Origin: a virus
Virus record (IMG/VR): IMGVR_UViG_3300004463_001172
Coordinates: 45,137-109,136 of that record
DNA length: 64,000 nucleotides
Reading direction: 5' to 3' (one strand)
Below, piece by piece: positions 1,300 through 59,847 of the stretch. The position numbers and the translations under genes are program-made. The first letter of the stretch is position 1, and each line of letters starts with the position of its first letter. Under the pieces are notes generated by a model. The model had not been told where the DNA came from, made no database searches, and saw only the letters and a program-made list of their open reading frames with translations.

Positions 1300-1315
1300 C
1301 TATCCCTCAAAGAGG

Positions 1316-1380
1316 CTAGTCAAGCGGAGCGGTGCTTAGCTGAGTCAAGCCAAGTCGAGCAAAGCCCAGCATAGCAAAGG
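1316..1380 (-). repeat. Degenerate pentanucleotide tandem array (TNNRC)
   Basis: Read on the minus strand this stretch is 13 consecutive 5-base units: TTTGC TATGC TGGGC and so on, each T-N-N-G/A-C apart from two variants. It lies immediately upstream of the radical SAM gene and downstream of a hairpin. A second array with a different consensus lies at 21420-21499. Function unknown. Confidence 0.7.
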
Positions 1381-1385
1381 ATATT

Positions 1386-6633: not shown

Positions 6634-7740
6634 CTATCCAAGTCCAATCCTCTCCAACCCTGTTGCGAGCCGCTGGGTAAAGCCCTGCCAGTGGAAGTGC
6701 GAGGTGGCTCGTCTGAGCGCCTGCAGGGCTTTCTCATGCACGATGTCATCACACGTGGCCTGGGCTTCTTGCATGGTCTTCCAAAGGATTTCCGGCCGAA
6801 TGATCGCTTGCTGGTAACAACTGCCATCCGGGTGTGGCTTGGAACCCTCTGGGTCAATCATCCACCCGCAGGACGAATCCACCCACTCATTCATCGGTGC
6901 AGCATTGAGGGTGATCACGGGTCGGCCATTGACGAGCGCCTCAATAAGGCTCAACCCTAAACCTTCCATTTTACTCGGCTGTACCACGACACGCCCTAAT
7001 CCATAGACCCCTCGCGGCGGTGGATAATCCCCTGATTCCCAGACGATATGTGGTGGGAGGGGCTGCTCCCAGCCAATGATCTTCACCGCCACCTCTTGGG
7101 GGAGTTGGCAATGGATCAACACTTCAGGCGGATTCCCCTCCAGCGGTTGACAGGCCAGCGCCGCGAGCAGCGTATCCAACCCTTTCCTGGCGTCGATGCC
7201 AATCCACCCTTGCGAACTGACAAAATCAAACCGCCGGTCCAGGGTCAGCGTTGAGGCCTCGACCAAGTGCTCATCCGGCACGCCCCAGCCGATATAGTGT
7301 GTCTGGGCCTCCTTCCCCCACTCTTGTAAGAGGGTGTACGCTCGTGCCGTGACACAGAGGAGCAGGTCATTAAAGCGTAGATAGGGCTTCTGGGGGAAGC
7401 TCAGGTAATTATCGATTTGTTGAACCGTTTTGATCCCAGCCTTTTGCAACGTCATAGGGAGCTCGGCTTGCAGCTCTTCGACAAACACCACCGCCTCAAG
7501 TCGGTGAAAACTGGCCCATTGCAAGAGCGCCAACGGTGGAATGACCGCATCGGGATAGTCCGTGCGGTTCGGCCAGTCCCATTCCCCAGTGGTTTCCCGC
7601 ATGGGCTGCCCGTAAATCATCCCCTGCCGCACAAACATGAAACACTCGTGATGGAGGTCGACACAGGCCCGACGTAGTGTCTGGGTAACATAGGGAACCC
7701 CACGCGCAAATGAGGTCGTGACAAATCCAAGCCTCGCCAT
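6634..7740 (-). CDS. Family 4-like glycosyltransferase
   Basis: This is a 368-residue GT-B enzyme. The C-terminal half contains SKMEGLGLSLIEALVNGRPVITL, the E-x7-E-type motif of GT4 enzymes that holds the donor sugar nucleotide. The N-terminal half is the acceptor domain. It starts right after a 27-bp repeat that also precedes the gene at 7741-8052, so its 5' end was the target of a small-gene insertion. Confidence 0.85.
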   Translation of the reverse strand: MARLGFVTTSFARGVPYVTQTLRRACVDLHHECFMFVRQGMIYGQPMRETTGEWDWPNRTDYPDAVIPPLALLQWASFHRLEAVVFVEELQAELPMTLQKAGIKTVQQIDNYLSFPQKPYLRFNDLLLCVTARAYTLLQEWGKEAQTHYIGWGVPDEHLVEASTLTLDRRFDFVSSQGWIGIDARKGLDTLLAALACQPLEGNPPEVLIHCQLPQEVAVKIIGWEQPLPPHIVWESGDYPPPRGVYGLGRVVVQPSKMEGLGLSLIEALVNGRPVITLNAAPMNEWVDSSCGWMIDPEGSKPHPDGSCYQQAIIRPEILWKTMQEAQATCDDIVHEKALQALRRATSHFHWQGFTQRLATGLERIGLG

Positions 7741-19765: not shown

Positions 19766-20218
19766 TCAGAACGGCACATCATAAGGTGCGATCTCAACAC
19801 TCAGCCGCCCATGATCCATCTCAGTGGTTTCCTCCCAGGCCCGTTTTAAGCGACGATAGGGCGATAACTGACACCAGTCACAATGACAGGAATCCGCGCT
19901 TTCCTGCTCGGTATCCCCGTCATTTTTTGCCACTATTCCTGCCGCTGTTGATATCGTACAGGCCTTGGCTGGAGCCGGTTCAGACTGGAATATCGCGGAA
20001 AAGTTCGCGGAATGATGTGATGGGGATGCCTCCGCGTTATGTTCCGCGATATTCCGCGTTATTTTCCGCGATATTTTCCGCGATTGATGGGTCGTTAAAT
20101 GCCGGTGGAGCGCATCGGCCGAGACCTGATACCGCTGCGCAATCTCTTTCGCAGTACCGCGTGCCCGCTCCATCGTAGCTCGATTCGGATGTCGACAAAT
20201 GGAGCATGGGCGTCCCAT
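19766..20218 (-). CDS. CxxC zinc and HTH-like protein with internal repeats
   Basis: 150 aa from ATG 20218 after GAGAGAGGGA. The N-terminus CSICRHPNRATMERA and EIAQRYQVSADALHRHL match small phage proteins with a CxxC knuckle and a helix-turn-helix (VSxxALxRH). The middle is a repetitive RKISRKITRNIAEH region encoded by at least six TTCCGCG-type repeats (plus strand 19990-20090). The C-terminal CHCDWC may bind zinc. Probably a DNA-binding regulator or packaging accessory. Confidence 0.6.
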   Translation of the reverse strand: MGRPCSICRHPNRATMERARGTAKEIAQRYQVSADALHRHLTTHQSRKISRKITRNIAEHNAEASPSHHSANFSAIFQSEPAPAKACTISTAAGIVAKNDGDTEQESADSCHCDWCQLSPYRRLKRAWEETTEMDHGRLSVEIAPYDVPF

Positions 20219-20497: not shown

Positions 20498-21409
20498 TTA
20501 CTCCCCGTCGAGGGCCGGTCGCAAGGATTCGACATCCACGACGCTTCGGCATCGACAGCTAATGGCGAGTGCGGCCGGTAATCTAGGATCGTGAGGCCCC
20601 TTCGCTTGATAGGTCGCTCCATCCGTATCCTGCAAGGTAAAGTCGCCCGTCAGCACCGGACGTTGGGCTAACAACGCCGGTCGGCGGTGTGCCGGTCTCA
20701 CCCGCGCATCGCCCGCATTGAGCCATTGCTTGCGCGGGGTGAGTTCCGGAAAGACCTGAGAGGCTCGCTGCTGTAGTTGCTCCTGTCGGCTCTGGGTGGC
20801 CAAGCTGAACGACCGATTGAGTTCCGTGCGGGTTATCACCTCCGCACGTGTGGCGATAGACCCGAAGCGTCCCGCCGCATCAGCTTGGGTCCGCAGCACC
20901 TCGGCCACCTCACGCTGGATCTGAAACGGGGTTCGCCCGCCAAGTGTCCCTAATTGTAGTTCGGTTGAAATTTTTCGGATGGCATCAGCACTCATGTTCG
21001 TAATAAGCTCTGCTTGATACCCCTGAAGAATACTGACGAGCCTTGGTTCAATGCTCGGAATCGCCGCCATGATATCTAAACCAACAGCCACGAGCGGCTG
21101 ATCAACACTTGTCAGACCGAAGTCCCACATGTGGCGTGATTGCTCATCAAAATAACGATGGTACGTGCGGGAAAATTCGGCCATAGTTTCTTCAACTGAT
21201 CGTTGTAGTCGTGGCAGGAATTGGGCAAGATAGCTGCTTTCATCAACTTCACTGATGGCATCGATAATCCGCCGCCTCGCATCGGCCAATAGTTGTAAAA
21301 CTCGTTTAACGGATGCCTCTTCAAGGTTATCAACCTCCTTAAGCAGCGCTGCCAATGTATCAGCATAACGCTGCTCAGGAGATTGAGCCGCAAGTAAGCG
21401 GTTAGTCAA
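20498..21409 (-). CDS. Mu F / SPP1 gp7-like head morphogenesis protein
   Basis: 303 aa. The start is TTG at 21409, after TAGGGG. The C-terminal half carries RAEVITRTELNRSFSLATQSRQ, then KQWLNAGDARVRPAHR and GPHDPRLPAALAISCRCRS, the minor head protein signature with a final C-x-C. Such proteins bind the portal and act early in head assembly. A GGTNN pentamer array occupies the 80 bases directly upstream. Confidence 0.85.
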   Translation of the reverse strand: MTNRLLAAQSPEQRYADTLAALLKEVDNLEEASVKRVLQLLADARRRIIDAISEVDESSYLAQFLPRLQRSVEETMAEFSRTYHRYFDEQSRHMWDFGLTSVDQPLVAVGLDIMAAIPSIEPRLVSILQGYQAELITNMSADAIRKISTELQLGTLGGRTPFQIQREVAEVLRTQADAAGRFGSIATRAEVITRTELNRSFSLATQSRQEQLQQRASQVFPELTPRKQWLNAGDARVRPAHRRPALLAQRPVLTGDFTLQDTDGATYQAKGPHDPRLPAALAISCRCRSVVDVESLRPALDGE

Positions 21410-21419
21410 AGTAAAACCC

Positions 21420-21499
21420 CTAGCTCACCTCACCATAACTAACCATACCCCACCCCAACTAACCCAACCTCGCCAAAGCCGACCGCACCAACCCTCACC
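21420..21499 (-). repeat. Degenerate pentanucleotide tandem array (GGTNN)
   Basis: Minus-strand sequence of 16 consecutive 5-base units: GGTGA GGGTT GGTGC GGTCG and so on to GCTAG, nearly all beginning GG or GT/GC with T third. It starts inside the stop codon of the RHH gene and ends ten bases before the Mu-F TTG start. The mRNA-sense strand is very G-rich, so two-tier G-quadruplexes are possible. Function unknown. Confidence 0.8.
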
Positions 21500-21650
21500 G
21501 GATTTTCTGTCGTTCCGCTTTTTCTCGTATCGATAACTCAATAATAGCCGTCATTGAGATACCATTTGCTTCAGCTAACGCTTTTAAGAGCCGTTGCGCT
21601 TCAGCACTCAAACGGAACGTCATGGGCTTAGATTCACCAGTCTCAGCCAT
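21495..21650 (-). CDS. Ribbon-helix-helix regulator, leaderless
   Basis: 51 aa from ATG 21650. The product MTFRLSAEAQRLLKALAEA with NGISMTAIIELSIREKA fits the RHH fold (strand, helix, turn, helix) used by antitoxins and phage repressors. The longer frame to 21686 begins in the -35 box. TATAAT ends six bases before the ATG, so the mRNA should have no leader. No toxin partner is evident next to it. Confidence 0.7.
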   Translation of the reverse strand: MAETGESKPMTFRLSAEAQRLLKALAEANGISMTAIIELSIREKAERQKIR

Positions 21651-21656
21651 ACCAAT

Positions 21657-21686
21657 ATTATACATACTGAGACTGTACAACGTCAA
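21657..21686 (-). promoter_or_regulatory. Promoter of RHH gene
   Basis: On the minus strand TTGACG (21686-21681), an 18-bp spacer and a perfect TATAAT (21662-21657), then six bases to the ATG. It could also drive the downstream Mu-F gene through the pentamer array. Confidence 0.8.
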
Positions 21687-21725
21687 TACAATTCTTGCGG
21701 TGTCAAGGCTTCACGGATCAGCAGC

Positions 21726-45013: not shown

Positions 45014-45170
45014 CACGGCCCCTTTCTATGGGTTCCATCAGTAGCGCCCCCTCAAGCGCTCTCCAAATTTCCCGTAAATCCAGGTCGTGAATGGTCTCCG
45101 GAGACACGAGGGTCACTCCCATGGCAGCCTCGATCCCATCGATGGCTTCTTGGCGTGTGCAATACCGCAT
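44997..45170 (-). CDS. Small hypothetical protein
   Basis: 57 aa from ATG 45170, preceded by GAGAGGGTGGG. Reads MRYCTRQEAIDGIEAAMG and IWRALEGALLMEP. Function unknown. Confidence 0.6.
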   Translation of the reverse strand: MRYCTRQEAIDGIEAAMGVTLVSPETIHDLDLREIWRALEGALLMEPIERGRDGADH

Positions 45171-46485: not shown

Positions 46486-48591
46486 TTAGCATGTCTCAAA
46501 AAAGTGCTGTACCTCTTTCAGGTCTCCCACGAGTGGTGCTGGCGGTAACCCTTTCAACAGCCACGTGCCATAGGATTTGCTTCGTAACCTCGTATCGAGT
46601 ATGGCCACGACCCCGATATCATCCATGCGCCGCATCAAGCGTCCAAAGGCTTGTTTGAGGGCGAGTAACGTCGTGGGTAACGCCAAGTCGCTAAACCACG
46701 CTTCGCCGACATCCTTGCAGCGGGCCTCCCACAAGGGATCGTCAGGCACGCCAAAGGGGATCCGGTCGATGATGACGAGTTGGAGCGCTTCTCCGGGGAC
46801 GTCGACCCCTTCCCAAAAGGTTCGCGTGCCAATGAGCACACCCTCACCGTCGTGCTTGAATTGCCGTAAGAGTTCTATCGGTGGCGCTTGCCCTTGGACA
46901 TAGATTGTGTGCGCGCTGGTCTCGTGCAGTCGCTCAGCCACCAACCGGAGCATCCGGTGAGACGTACAGAGTACAAACGCGCCTCCCCGTTTGATGGCCA
47001 ATAATGCCTCGGTCTCATCGATGACTCGGGTGTGATAGTGCTCTTGCGCTTCGGTATCATTCCACCGGGCTTTGGTAGGATCGAACGCTTCTACATCCCT
47101 CGGCACATAGAGCCGCGTCGCCACCCGAAAGGGAAAGGGCGAGGGCAACACCAGTGAAGTGCCACCCTCGGCTCCCACCCGATCGCGCCAGTAGGTAAAG
47201 GGATCACCGCCCTGATAAGACTGTTTCCCTGTTGCCAGCGTGGCTGAGGTCGCCAGGACAATCCGCTCATTCCAGAGATACTCTTCTAAGAGCTGACTGA
47301 CCCGAATCGGCTTGACGTGGAGGGTGACTCCCTGCCGCCCTCGACCTTCGCTGCGCTCGATATACCGCACCATTGGTGTCTCAGCCTCGGCGTCTCCCGT
47401 CCCGAGCGCGAGATCGATCCACGCGGCGGTGCGTTCGCACAAGTCCGCCAGCTTGCCCCAGCGCTCCGCATCGATGGCATCCGCTTCATCTGTGCCGGAT
47501 TTGAGCGATTCCTTGACGGTTTCCATGGTGCGTCCCAGCGTCCTAGTGCTCTGGTAGAGGGCTACGCCCGCTTGACTCAAGGCTTCATGGAGAAAGCCTT
47601 CGAGGTTGCGCACCTTGGCGTCTTGCATCTCCTCCGTGAGCCGGGCATACCAGGCTTCGGCCTGTGCGGTGAGGGCTGCCGCTTTAGGCTCCAGCCCGAC
47701 AATACGGTCAAGGACAATCTCACCAAAGGCGGTGCCGCGCAGGCGTTCACGGGTATGATCGGCGAGCGCTCCGACTTTGCGTTCGATCACTCGCCAGCGC
47801 CCAGCGGTGAGTTCGGCACCAAAGACTTGGGTCGCGGTTTGCTCAAGAGCGTGTGCCTCGTCGACGACCACCACCGGATGGGTCGGAAGCAAGCCCACGG
47901 ATTTCCCAAGGAAGAGGTCGAGGAGGAGCAAGCTGTGATTCACAATGACGATCTGCGCTTGTGCCGCGTGCTCTTTGGCTTGTTGGCTATAGCACTCGGC
48001 TAGGAACGGACATTTACGGCCCAGGCACCCATATCCATCCACGGTCACTTTTTCGCGTAATTCGTCGCTAATCCCGAAGGGGAGCTGGTCGAGATCGCCA
48101 TGGGTGCCGTCGGTGCTCAGCCACTCCAGCAACTTGGTATACTCGACGGCGGCACTTTGGGTGACAAATAGGTCTTTCTGGCGCTCGTCGGTCTGCACGC
48201 GGTGCATGTGCTCTACACACGCATAGTTGCTGCGCCCCTTGAGCACTGCCGCTTTGAGATCGGGGAAGACGTGCTGCAGTCGGGGGATTTCCTGCTCGGC
48301 CAATTGCTGCTGCAGCGCCTTCGTGTGGGTGCTAACAATCGCTTTGGCGCCAGATGCGGCAATCGCCATGAGATACGCGAGCGCCTTCCCGGTGCCGGTT
48401 CCGGCCTCTCCTATGAGGTGTTGCTTGGTGGTGATTGCATCGGCCATGGCTTGCGCAAGCTGTACCTGGCCTTCACGGGGTTCATAGCCAGGGATGACGC
48501 GGGCTAATAGGCTTGTGGGGGAGAAATAGTCAGCCATGTGAGGCATGGTGAGTGCTGGGGTGGTGTGGCGTGTCTTGGCTTGTCGTTTCAT
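46486..48591 (-). CDS. DinG/XPD-like helicase with iron-sulfur cluster
   Basis: 701 aa. Walker A GEAGTGTGK (61-69), IVSTHTKALQQQL (motif Ia), cysteines C125, C189, C194 and C200 that would hold a 4Fe-4S cluster, DEAH (244-247), and a C-terminal RecA domain with AFGRLMRRMDDIGVVAILD. A superfamily 2 5'-3' helicase. In this phage it could unwind replication or recombination intermediates. Its ATG overlaps the loader gene's stop as ATGA. No replicative DnaB is in the window. Confidence 0.9.
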   Translation of the reverse strand: MKRQAKTRHTTPALTMPHMADYFSPTSLLARVIPGYEPREGQVQLAQAMADAITTKQHLIGEAGTGTGKALAYLMAIAASGAKAIVSTHTKALQQQLAEQEIPRLQHVFPDLKAAVLKGRSNYACVEHMHRVQTDERQKDLFVTQSAAVEYTKLLEWLSTDGTHGDLDQLPFGISDELREKVTVDGYGCLGRKCPFLAECYSQQAKEHAAQAQIVIVNHSLLLLDLFLGKSVGLLPTHPVVVVDEAHALEQTATQVFGAELTAGRWRVIERKVGALADHTRERLRGTAFGEIVLDRIVGLEPKAAALTAQAEAWYARLTEEMQDAKVRNLEGFLHEALSQAGVALYQSTRTLGRTMETVKESLKSGTDEADAIDAERWGKLADLCERTAAWIDLALGTGDAEAETPMVRYIERSEGRGRQGVTLHVKPIRVSQLLEEYLWNERIVLATSATLATGKQSYQGGDPFTYWRDRVGAEGGTSLVLPSPFPFRVATRLYVPRDVEAFDPTKARWNDTEAQEHYHTRVIDETEALLAIKRGGAFVLCTSHRMLRLVAERLHETSAHTIYVQGQAPPIELLRQFKHDGEGVLIGTRTFWEGVDVPGEALQLVIIDRIPFGVPDDPLWEARCKDVGEAWFSDLALPTTLLALKQAFGRLMRRMDDIGVVAILDTRLRSKSYGTWLLKGLPPAPLVGDLKEVQHFFETC

Positions 48592-49376
48592 CCGCGTCCT
48601 TTCGCAAACTGGGTGAGTAATTCGAGGCTCGGAAACCCGTCAATCTGTTCTTCCGTCAGCCGCTGCCGTTTTCGGACCCAGACCGCATTTTCGGCGTCAT
48701 AGTGATAGCCCCCGGCCCGGACGATTTCCCGACGAGCTTTGTGATTGTCCATCCAACTACGATCCTCGGTGACTTTGCCGTTGAGGAAGACACTAGGATT
48801 CACGCCAGGCCCCGTGGCGGTGGCTTCAAAGACTTTGGCACGTAGGGGAACGGCGTCAGCATCGGTGATCGCCTGCTCTTCTGGGGTGATGGGGATATCT
48901 TCCATCAGCTGCGGGAGCACTCCTCGCAAAAAGGCTCGTCCGCTTGGTGTCGCTTCTTCGAGGATCTCGTGTTTTTCTGCTGGTGTGACTCGATTGGCTC
49001 GATGTTTTTCATCGGACCATTCGGCTTGCCAGGCAGGCTTATGACGCGGACAGTAATAGCTATGCTCACTGATCAGGCCCGCCGGCGGCCAGGCTAACAA
49101 TCCTTCACAACCCTGATGTTGGCAGGGGAGATAGCGTTGGATATCTGTGGATTCCAAGTGCTGCGCTAGGGCTTTAATCTCGGCTGCCGTCGGCATGATT
49201 TGTCGGCGGCCATCATCGCCCAGGATGCGCAGCATCGCCTTACTGACCGCTTCGAAACTATACGTTTTCAGCACCCGGTAGTAGGCGTGAACCAGCACCT
49301 CGCTAAAGGGCCTGCTGTAAATGGCGCACACCTCTTCGAGCATCTGGGCGAGTTTGGGTTGTTCCTGGAGATTCAT
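48588..49376 (-). CDS. Helicase-loader-like replication protein
   Basis: 262 aa from ATG 49376, ATGA-coupled to the O-like initiator. The N-terminus LAQMLEEVCAIYSRPFSEVL then VHAYYRVLKTYSFEAVSKAM and MPTAAEIKALAQ follows the helical pattern of phage G40P-type loader domains. A zinc site follows (CQHQGCEGLLAWPP, YYCPRHKPAW). It likely bridges the initiator and a host helicase, equivalent to lambda P. Confidence 0.7.
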   Translation of the reverse strand: MNLQEQPKLAQMLEEVCAIYSRPFSEVLVHAYYRVLKTYSFEAVSKAMLRILGDDGRRQIMPTAAEIKALAQHLESTDIQRYLPCQHQGCEGLLAWPPAGLISEHSYYCPRHKPAWQAEWSDEKHRANRVTPAEKHEILEEATPSGRAFLRGVLPQLMEDIPITPEEQAITDADAVPLRAKVFEATATGPGVNPSVFLNGKVTEDRSWMDNHKARREIVRAGGYHYDAENAVWVRKRQRLTEEQIDGFPSLELLTQFAKGRG

Positions 49377-50407
49377 GGGTTCTCCCACTCGACATAGGGC
49401 CTTGCGGTGGATTCCGTGTCGTCTTTCCACTCGCCCGATACGACTAAGACATAGTTGGCCGTGCCTTTCGTGTGATGTTGGCTCAGCAGCCAGGGCAGGC
49501 TTGCTTTAAAGCGTCTTTTCCCTGGGGGAGGCTGGCATTCCCCCCGGAGGAACTGTGATTCCTGAAAGCCGAGTCTGACGCGATCCCAATACCCTTTTGA
49601 ACTTTTGGCCTGTATGGCTTTATTGGCTTTTGCGATGAACTTGTCATCGGCATCGTCCAGCGCAAACGGCCGTCCCCCGAGTGGCACAATCTGCTCGTTC
49701 CACCACAAGACAAATTTTGCTGCCGGCGTATCGATGCTGATGGGTTCCCCCAACGGGGGAACTAAAGGGGGAGATCCTTGGTTTTTGTTTTTCTTTCTTT
49801 CTTTATCTTTATTTTGTTGGTTCACTTTCTGAACCATTTCCGGTTCACTTTCTAAACCATTCTTTAATGGTTCACTTTCTAAACCATTTCCTTCTTGTGC
49901 CTTGAGTTTCTTGGCTTCTCGTCGTATTTGGTTCACTTTCTGAACCATTAATCTTTTTTGGTTTAGATACTGAACCATTTCATCCCTAGCCGTTTCAGGG
50001 TTTTCGAGACAATGGTTTAGTTTGTAAACCATTTCACAATGGCGATTCAGTCGGTAGAGTCCTGTGCCCCCACGCCCTGGATGTGTTTTCCCGGCCGCAG
50101 CATCGAGCCGTTGGATAATGCCCGTGGCTTGATGAAAGGCTAATGCCTCTGTCAGCTTGGCCCGGCTGACCCCGCATCCAAAGTTTAGTAGACGTCCATC
50201 CTGGGAGACTTTTCCGCCAATGAATTGCGAGAAACTGATATAGTCCTGCTCTTTCTCGTTTCCCTCTTTATCGCGATAGCCGAATGTACTTCGGAGCACG
50301 TAGAGCAAGACCTTTTCTTCGGATTCGCGCAGCAATGGAATGATGTAGTCGATGAGTTTGTTGGGAAGCTGCGTAAAGTTCGGAAAGAGGTCTTGTTCAG
50401 ATGACAT
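49373..50407 (-). CDS. O-like replication initiator carrying iterons
   Basis: 344 aa. N-terminal FTQLPNKLIDYIIPLLRESE and KVLLYVLRSTFGYRDKEGNE match phage replication protein O-type winged-helix domains. The centre is low complexity (EMVQKVNQ, NGLESEP) because the DNA there is the iteron array, exactly as in lambda O. The C-terminus carries a helical domain with KFVLWWNEQIVPLGGRPF. It should bind the iterons and start replication with the loader. Confidence 0.82.
   Translation of the reverse strand: MSSEQDLFPNFTQLPNKLIDYIIPLLRESEEKVLLYVLRSTFGYRDKEGNEKEQDYISFSQFIGGKVSQDGRLLNFGCGVSRAKLTEALAFHQATGIIQRLDAAAGKTHPGRGGTGLYRLNRHCEMVYKLNHCLENPETARDEMVQYLNQKRLMVQKVNQIRREAKKLKAQEGNGLESEPLKNGLESEPEMVQKVNQQNKDKERKKNKNQGSPPLVPPLGEPISIDTPAAKFVLWWNEQIVPLGGRPFALDDADDKFIAKANKAIQAKSSKGYWDRVRLGFQESQFLRGECQPPPGKRRFKASLPWLLSQHHTKGTANYVLVVSGEWKDDTESTARPYVEWENP
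49786..50031. other. Probable replication origin: six palindromic iterons
   Basis: Six 19-bp sites of form TGGTTYA-N5-TRAACCA at 49818, 49841 (first base changed), 49868, 49929, 49959 and 50013, each an inverted repeat. A T-rich/A-rich tract (49786-49817) adjoins them on one side, like a DNA unwinding element. The sites lie inside the initiator gene, matching the lambda ori layout. Confidence 0.85.
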
Positions 50408-59677: not shown

Positions 59678-59740
59678 TTGACGTGGGGGATATGACGGTA
59701 TACATTATGTCTAGTACAGTCTAAAAGAGTCTAGTACAGT
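59678..59740 (+). promoter_or_regulatory. Promoter with tandem 20-bp operator repeats
   Basis: TTGACG (59678-59683), 17 bp, TACATT (59701-59706). GTCTAGTACAGT repeats at 59709-59720 and 59729-59740, two helical turns apart, just past the start site. ATGACGGTATA at 59692 is the complement of the TATACCGTCAT box. The 170 bases before it (from 59506) hold no gene. Confidence 0.65.
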
Positions 59741-59847
59741 TTAGCATAGGTGGTTACTGGTGAGGTTTTATTTTGATTTCAACCAATCCTCCTCTTATGA
59801 TACGCCCAGTGGTGTACGCACCCGGGCGTCTCAATGGGGGAGGGTTG

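Follow-up and report, generated by a model that had tools for sequence, protein, structure and literature searches.

A GGYNN pentanucleotide array in a phage genome as the probable guide part of a VIPR vrRNA gene

The array A4 and the unit that carries it

The IMG/VR virus record IMGVR_UViG_3300004463_001172 comprises 109,136 bases, and its positions 45,137 to 109,136 form the window analysed here (64,000 nucleotides, numbered from 1). On the minus strand of the window, the space between an RHH protein gene and a Mu-F-like head morphogenesis gene is filled by a degenerate pentanucleotide array, here named A4. Our analysis indicates that A4 is very probably the variable (guide) part of a vrRNA gene of VIPR (Viral Interference Programmable Repeat), a system whose protein, Vipr, is encoded in the same genome.

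Read from 21499 to 21420, A4 consists of sixteen five-base units, which are, from 5′ to 3′, GGTGA GGGTT GGTGC GGTCG GCTTT GGCGA GGTTG GGTTA (first half) and GTTGG GGTGG GGTAT GGTTA GTTAT GGTGA GGTGA GCTAG (second half). An exact GGY start was found in 11 of the 16 units, and the other five depart from GGY by one base. The count of sixteen units in the original prediction is right, and the top-scoring GGYNN segment adds one more, reaching 21417 and giving 17 units. The GGY triplets are conserved and the NN pairs form a varied series, which is the pattern that defines VIPR guides: (CC) GA TT GC CG TT GA TG TA GG GG AT TA AT GA GA AG. As had also been proposed, the array runs from a stop codon to the region of the next ribosome site, starting inside the TGA of the RHH gene and stopping short of the Mu-F TTG start by about 8 bases; its period is not a codon multiple, and it is non-coding.

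The periodicity was tested against 5000 dinucleotide shuffles. The lag-5 identity, which was expected to exceed that of shuffled sequence, was 0.52 as against 0.37±0.05, a value reached by 8 of the 5000. At lags 15 and 20 the identities were 0.60 and 0.58, and no shuffle was as high; lag 10 was likewise above the shuffles, and lag 7 was below their mean. The phase-5 information reached 45 bits (shuffles, 10±3.7; maximum 29.5), and the GGYNN segment score was 46.6; none of 60 Markov surrogates of the entire 109-kb genome scored above 25.8. Tandem Repeats Finder did not detect A4, because two of each five bases are free. Rfam gave zero matches within the window, and among phage records blastn gave no relative of the A4 region.

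A4 belongs to a compact unit that comprises, in order, a near-consensus promoter, a candidate inverted-repeat operator, the RHH gene, the putative guide and a T-rich tail (Table 1). The RHH protein matched Pfam RHH_1 at 1.1e-4, which passes the family cut-off, and its PHROG match was an Arc-like repressor. It is a candidate for a regulatory or accessory role in the unit.

Table 1. Positions of the A4 unit, its neighbours and the other period-5 arrays (window coordinates unless marked as genome)
Feature	Position	Strand	Remarks
Remnant of older Mu-F 5′ end, LLIREALTPQELY*	21683..21724	-	upstream of inserted unit
Promoter TTGACG-18-TATAAT	21657..21686	-	ahead of RHH gene and vrRNA; 11/12 consensus bases
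Perfect 9-bp inverted repeat CAGTCTCAG/CTGAGACTG	21638..21675		spans -10 box; candidate RHH operator
RHH (CopG/Arc-like) gene	21495..21650	-	probable ATG near 21650; listed open reading frame 21495-21686
Putative A4 vrRNA variable region	21417..21504	-	17 GGTNN/GGYNN units; YNNGG reading adds TCC in front
Candidate A4 3′ tail GGGTTTTACTTTGACTAACC	21396..21417	-	T-rich; includes Mu-F TTG start
Mu-F-like head morphogenesis gene	20498..21409	-	phrog_2468 at 1.4e-21; 5′ end bears insertion
A1	genome 576-683		about 22 units; directly after vipr, outside window
A2	genome 718-812		about 19 units; directly after vipr, outside window
A3	1313-1382	+	AGYNN, 14 units; followed by 16-bp hairpin 1386-1401/1409-1424
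A5	48532..48581	+	GGYNN-like, 10 units; weaker; antisense at start of DinG-like helicase gene
A6	59678..59770 (array 59708-59752)	+	AGYNN; own TTGACG-17-TACATT promoter; A4-like tail

Two relatives (L002 and L140), whose portal is 81% identical, lack the RHH-array unit, and their portal and Mu-F genes overlap with no sequence between. In the A4 phage, the space from the portal stop to the promoter contains the remnant listed in Table 1, which is homologous to the start of Mu-F in L002, NIQVREALTPQERYA; the local alignment scored 44, the maximum among 500 shuffles being 37. The downstream Mu-F gene has its own, more diverged N-terminus. From this remnant and the diverged N-terminus we reconstruct an insertion of the unit at the Mu-F 5′ end, or a recombination into it, and the new Mu-F start probably arrived together with the unit. 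The reconstruction compares a single genome with L002 and L140, which are closely similar. Absence from close relatives had been named as a ground for rejecting the array. The array is indeed absent from both, but the reason is that the entire RHH-array unit is an insertion in the A4 phage, not that the array arose by accident.

Vipr and related arrays in this and other phages

VIPR consists of a RAMP-fold Vipr protein and vrRNAs, and each vrRNA is made up of 9-16 YNNGG repeats followed by a constant, structured 3′ tail (PMC13142463, bioRxiv 2026). According to the main text of that paper, the guide reads double-stranded DNA through its NN pairs, skipping one base from each pair to the next, most of the natural targets are rival phages, prophages or satellites, and the effect is transcriptional silencing; the system is CRISPR-like and a possible forerunner of CRISPR. 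The same text places the vrRNAs at the flanks of vipr and does not mention an RHH partner.

A Vipr homologue was found in the A4 phage itself. Its first gene (genome 1-570, outside the window) matched PDB 36pp, 'SUSP1 Vipr protein', at 3e-25 in phmmer and phrog_4652 (function not assigned there) at 2.4e-46, while PADLOC and NCBIfam gave no model matching it. This gene is single-copy in the 109-kb genome; the contig opens with its ATG and closes with a stop codon, and an end repeat is absent. The glycine-rich loop (G-loop) residues G173, R178 and G182 are invariant across 24 Vipr sequences, that of the phage included. The RAMP fold was checked on a relative with 44% identity (from locus L031): the fold was predicted at pLDDT 94.1, and each of its 33 PDB matches at E≤1e-3 was a CRISPR class 1 complex (Csm, Cmr, type VII, III-D). 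A 98-aa open reading frame that would precede vipr if the contig is circular was examined as a possible vap accessory gene and had no Pfam match. The RHH gene may play a vap-like part; no such link was found in the main text of PMC13142463. Vipr homologues also occur on PLSDB plasmids of Azospirillum and Bradyrhizobium, at up to 44% identity to the phage Vipr (for example, NZ_CP054621.1 906417-906971).

The full virus record was scanned for periods from 4 to 13, and the clear outlier was period 5 (together with 10, its multiple), which gave six arrays, A1 to A6. The high scores at periods 6 and 7 came from long, weak, repetitive stretches resembling protein-coding repeats, which were set aside; period 5 stands out specifically for non-coding arrays. 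All six match R-G-Y-N-N or a near variant on one strand, which is sense to the neighbouring gene in four arrays and antisense in two. A1 and A2, together with vipr, constitute the home VIPR locus of the phage (L005:1-830, genome 1-830). A3 lies antisense between radical-SAM-like and methyltransferase-like genes (functions guessed from sequence alone) and is a probable further vrRNA, that is, a second distant guide. The membership of A5 in this class is uncertain. A6 precedes an HTH_17 gene and a gene for a GIY-YIG endonuclease that has an HTH_17-like domain of its own; a direct repeat, TCTAGTACAGT, occurs there twice, 20 bp apart, and A6 may be a set of operator repeats rather than a guide. 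Repeats of other kinds are also present in the window: a 22-bp and 12-bp tandem repeat, TCCGCGTTATGTTCCGCGATAT, within an open reading frame at 20031-20084, and a 27-bp tandem repeat (GGTTCACTTTCTAAACCATTTCC-like) in three copies at 49819-49891, within the open reading frame 49373-50407.

Our survey of viral contigs for six GGTNN units returned at least 120 stretches, and the linkage counts were taken on 120 loci from other viruses. Some of the stretches are coding repeats or microsatellites, many of which were set aside, and dozens are long degenerate non-coding arrays. By tblastn, a Vipr homologue was detected in 27 of 43 degenerate-array loci but in only one of the 77 other loci (Fisher p about 1e-14). 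In L034, for instance, the arrays directly follow the homologue of the phage's first gene. The 17 units of A4 fall within the range of Vipr loci, which is 7-24 units by the same measure at other array loci with Vipr. This survey points to many environmental VIPR phages, with at least 27 degenerate-array loci that have a Vipr homologue. Two of these loci have further peculiarities: at L034:2216-3405, about a dozen guide units are separated by a constant TTTAATGAATTTAAT linker in a CRISPR-array-like layout, and at L031:3470-5220, the closest Vipr relative among the loci (44%) has long arrays on both sides and an HNH-nuclease-like gene directly upstream.

The survey also points to large phages that possess guides and in which Vipr was undetected. 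The 105-kb contig IMGVR_UViG_3300028840_002691 (L136) has two good GGYNN arrays, 1244-1320 and 6863-6925, which are 5.5 kb apart and surround SbcC/SbcD-like genes; these arrays are candidate solitary guides. The 67-kb contig IMGVR_UViG_3300021090_001018 (L137) has GGYNN arrays near 58.5 kb, beside a uracil-DNA glycosylase/polymerase-like gene. Vipr was not detected in either contig, with the reservation that divergent Vipr types could escape the profile; a full-sensitivity hidden Markov model search around the arrays of array-bearing contigs without Vipr found no divergent Vipr.

A probable guide for Vipr and the other explanations of A4

Given the linkage of such arrays to Vipr across phages and the presence of Vipr in this genome, A4 is best read as a vrRNA guide. 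The array statistics, the two arrays directly behind vipr, the unit number and the A1-like tail speak for this reading as well. One transcript, started at the promoter at 21686-21657, would carry both the RHH gene and the A4 RNA and would finish in the T-rich tail, which extends over the Mu-F start. Vipr from the same phage would then assemble along this RNA, one subunit per GGY-NN unit. Following the 1-nt skip rule, the Vipr-A4 complex would read double-stranded DNA through the NN pairs and silence a rival element. Control of the A4 guide probably falls to the RHH gene, which may also assist it. We further suggest, more tentatively and with somewhat less than even confidence, that phages carry VIPR guides as portable units, made up of a promoter, an RHH regulator and one vrRNA, which lie away from vipr and can be inserted elsewhere, and which would arm the phage's own Vipr in trans or jam that of a rival as an RNA anti-VIPR. 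If this is true, the travelling, regulated guide unit would offer a concrete route for VIPR guide acquisition or counter-attack.

Several observations weigh against A4 as a guide for the phage's own Vipr. The array lies on the strand opposite to vipr at a distance of 66 kb, or of 43 kb the other way round on the assumption of a circular genome, unlike in the other VIPR phages examined: in six such records, the arrays among the matches listed share the strand of vipr and are no more than about 1 kb away from it. The consensus of A1 and A2 is nearer to GG[C/A]NN than to the GGTNN/GGYNN of A4, a difference that could mean two guide sets for different Viprs. The evidence from the tail, which favours the guide, is modest. 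The A4 3′ flank, GGGTTTTACTTTGA, is similar to the A1 flank, GGGTTTTTCTT, and the A6 flank, GGTTTTATTTTGA, and the A1-A4 and A4-A6 tail scores were attained by 0.65% and 0.05-0.08%, respectively, of the GGG-starting 20-mers of the genome, values that are indicative only, as the six arrays came from scanning and the tails were compared after sequence inspection. In other VIPR phages, too, the arrays are followed by similar T-rich tails, but the significance is weak.

The search for a target was also negative. With one base skipped, the A4 code is CCxGAxTTxGCxCGxTTxGAxTGxTAxGGxGGxATxTAxATxGAxGA, which in codon phase reads P[DE][FL]AR[FL][DE][CW]YGG[IM]Y[IM][DE][DE], assuming that the skipped base is the wobble position. 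Scans with exact partial patterns of the phage's own genome, viral_contigs, genome_contigs and phage records found no match beyond chance; the partial matches (two Singulisphaera, two viral) cover just the nine pairs queried or one more, which is chance level. The 1-nt-skip searches for A3 and A1 found nothing, or matches at chance level, and skips of 0, 2 and 3 gave no improvement over skip 1 in the own genome and the loci.

Some of these points would also fit with A4 being a vrRNA from another phage, which partners a foreign Vipr or, as a decoy RNA, ties up that of a competitor (RNA 'anti-VIPR'). By analogy, the solitary CRISPR repeats of phages that act as RNA anti-CRISPRs (Racrs) provide a precedent (PMC10651486). 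The remote, solitary position of A4 on the other strand, its arrival in an inserted unit with its own promoter, its departure from the consensus of the vipr-adjacent arrays, and the array-bearing contigs of 105 and 67 kb in which Vipr was undetected are all in keeping with it. However, Vipr is encoded in A4's own genome, the A4 tail resembles the A1 tail, and 17 units with varied NN pairs are unnecessary in a decoy. We consider this explanation unlikely, although it is the best of the alternatives.

A4 could instead be a DNA operator, with repeated sites for the adjacent RHH protein. RHH proteins can bind arrays of short repeats, and the omega-type RHH repressors use repeated operators of 7-bp heptads; the RHH gene directly adjoins A4. 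But the period of A4 is 5 and not the 7 bp of omega, the perfect 9-bp inverted repeat on the RHH promoter makes a better operator, and similar arrays in this phage and in others follow vipr and not RHH, which leaves this explanation very improbable.

Slightly less probable still is a cis-acting RNA element for Mu-F translation, be it a G-quadruplex, a ribosome stand-by site or a protein-bound leader. A4 does lie in the Mu-F mRNA leader, it has many GG steps, and GGTGAGGTGA looks like an extended ribosome site. However, the predicted minimum energy of A4 (ViennaRNA) was -17.4 kcal/mol, with an identical structure, whether or not the G-quadruplex option was used. Two arrays of the phage are antisense to genes, which disfavours a cis role in translation; arrays in other phages flank vipr, whatever gene follows; and L002 and L140 have Mu-F without any array. 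Among the roles put forward in the original prediction, G-quadruplex and ribosome stand-by are thus not upheld, while that of an RNA element bound by a protein is probably right.

The least probable explanation is a functionless, decayed microsatellite: the period is short and simple and the units are mutated, but slippage with random decay would not keep three of five positions and free the other two, several unrelated arrays in one genome share the RGYNN frame, and the association between arrays and Vipr is strong.

Comparison with known systems

As a vrRNA guide, A4 would be of a known kind, VIPR having been described in 2026, in a placement and packaging absent from the main text of PMC13142463. 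It shares with VIPR the Vipr homologue in the same phage, the GGY pentanucleotides with variable NN, the 17 units, the T-rich 3′ flank, the phage-borne location and the guides beside vipr. It differs in that A4 itself and vipr lie on opposite strands, 66 kb apart, and in that A4 is linked to an RHH gene, has its own promoter and is inserted at the start of a structural gene.

Like the Racrs (PMC10651486), A4 is a solitary guide-like RNA unit in a phage, distant from the effector locus. Racrs, however, mimic CRISPR repeats and not a GGY/NN pattern, and the A4 phage encodes the effector itself. The omega-type RHH repressors are similar in having an RHH gene beside a short-period repeat, but their period is 7 rather than 5, and the A4 unit has a separate inverted-repeat operator at its promoter. 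TRAP is an oligomeric protein that binds (N)AG-NN RNA repeats. Its binding sites resemble A4 in having a triplet plus two free bases, a period of 5 and, as predicted for A4, an RNA bound by an oligomeric protein, whereas the triplet is GGY in A4 and GAG/UAG for TRAP, and the protein would be of the RAMP fold instead of TRAP.
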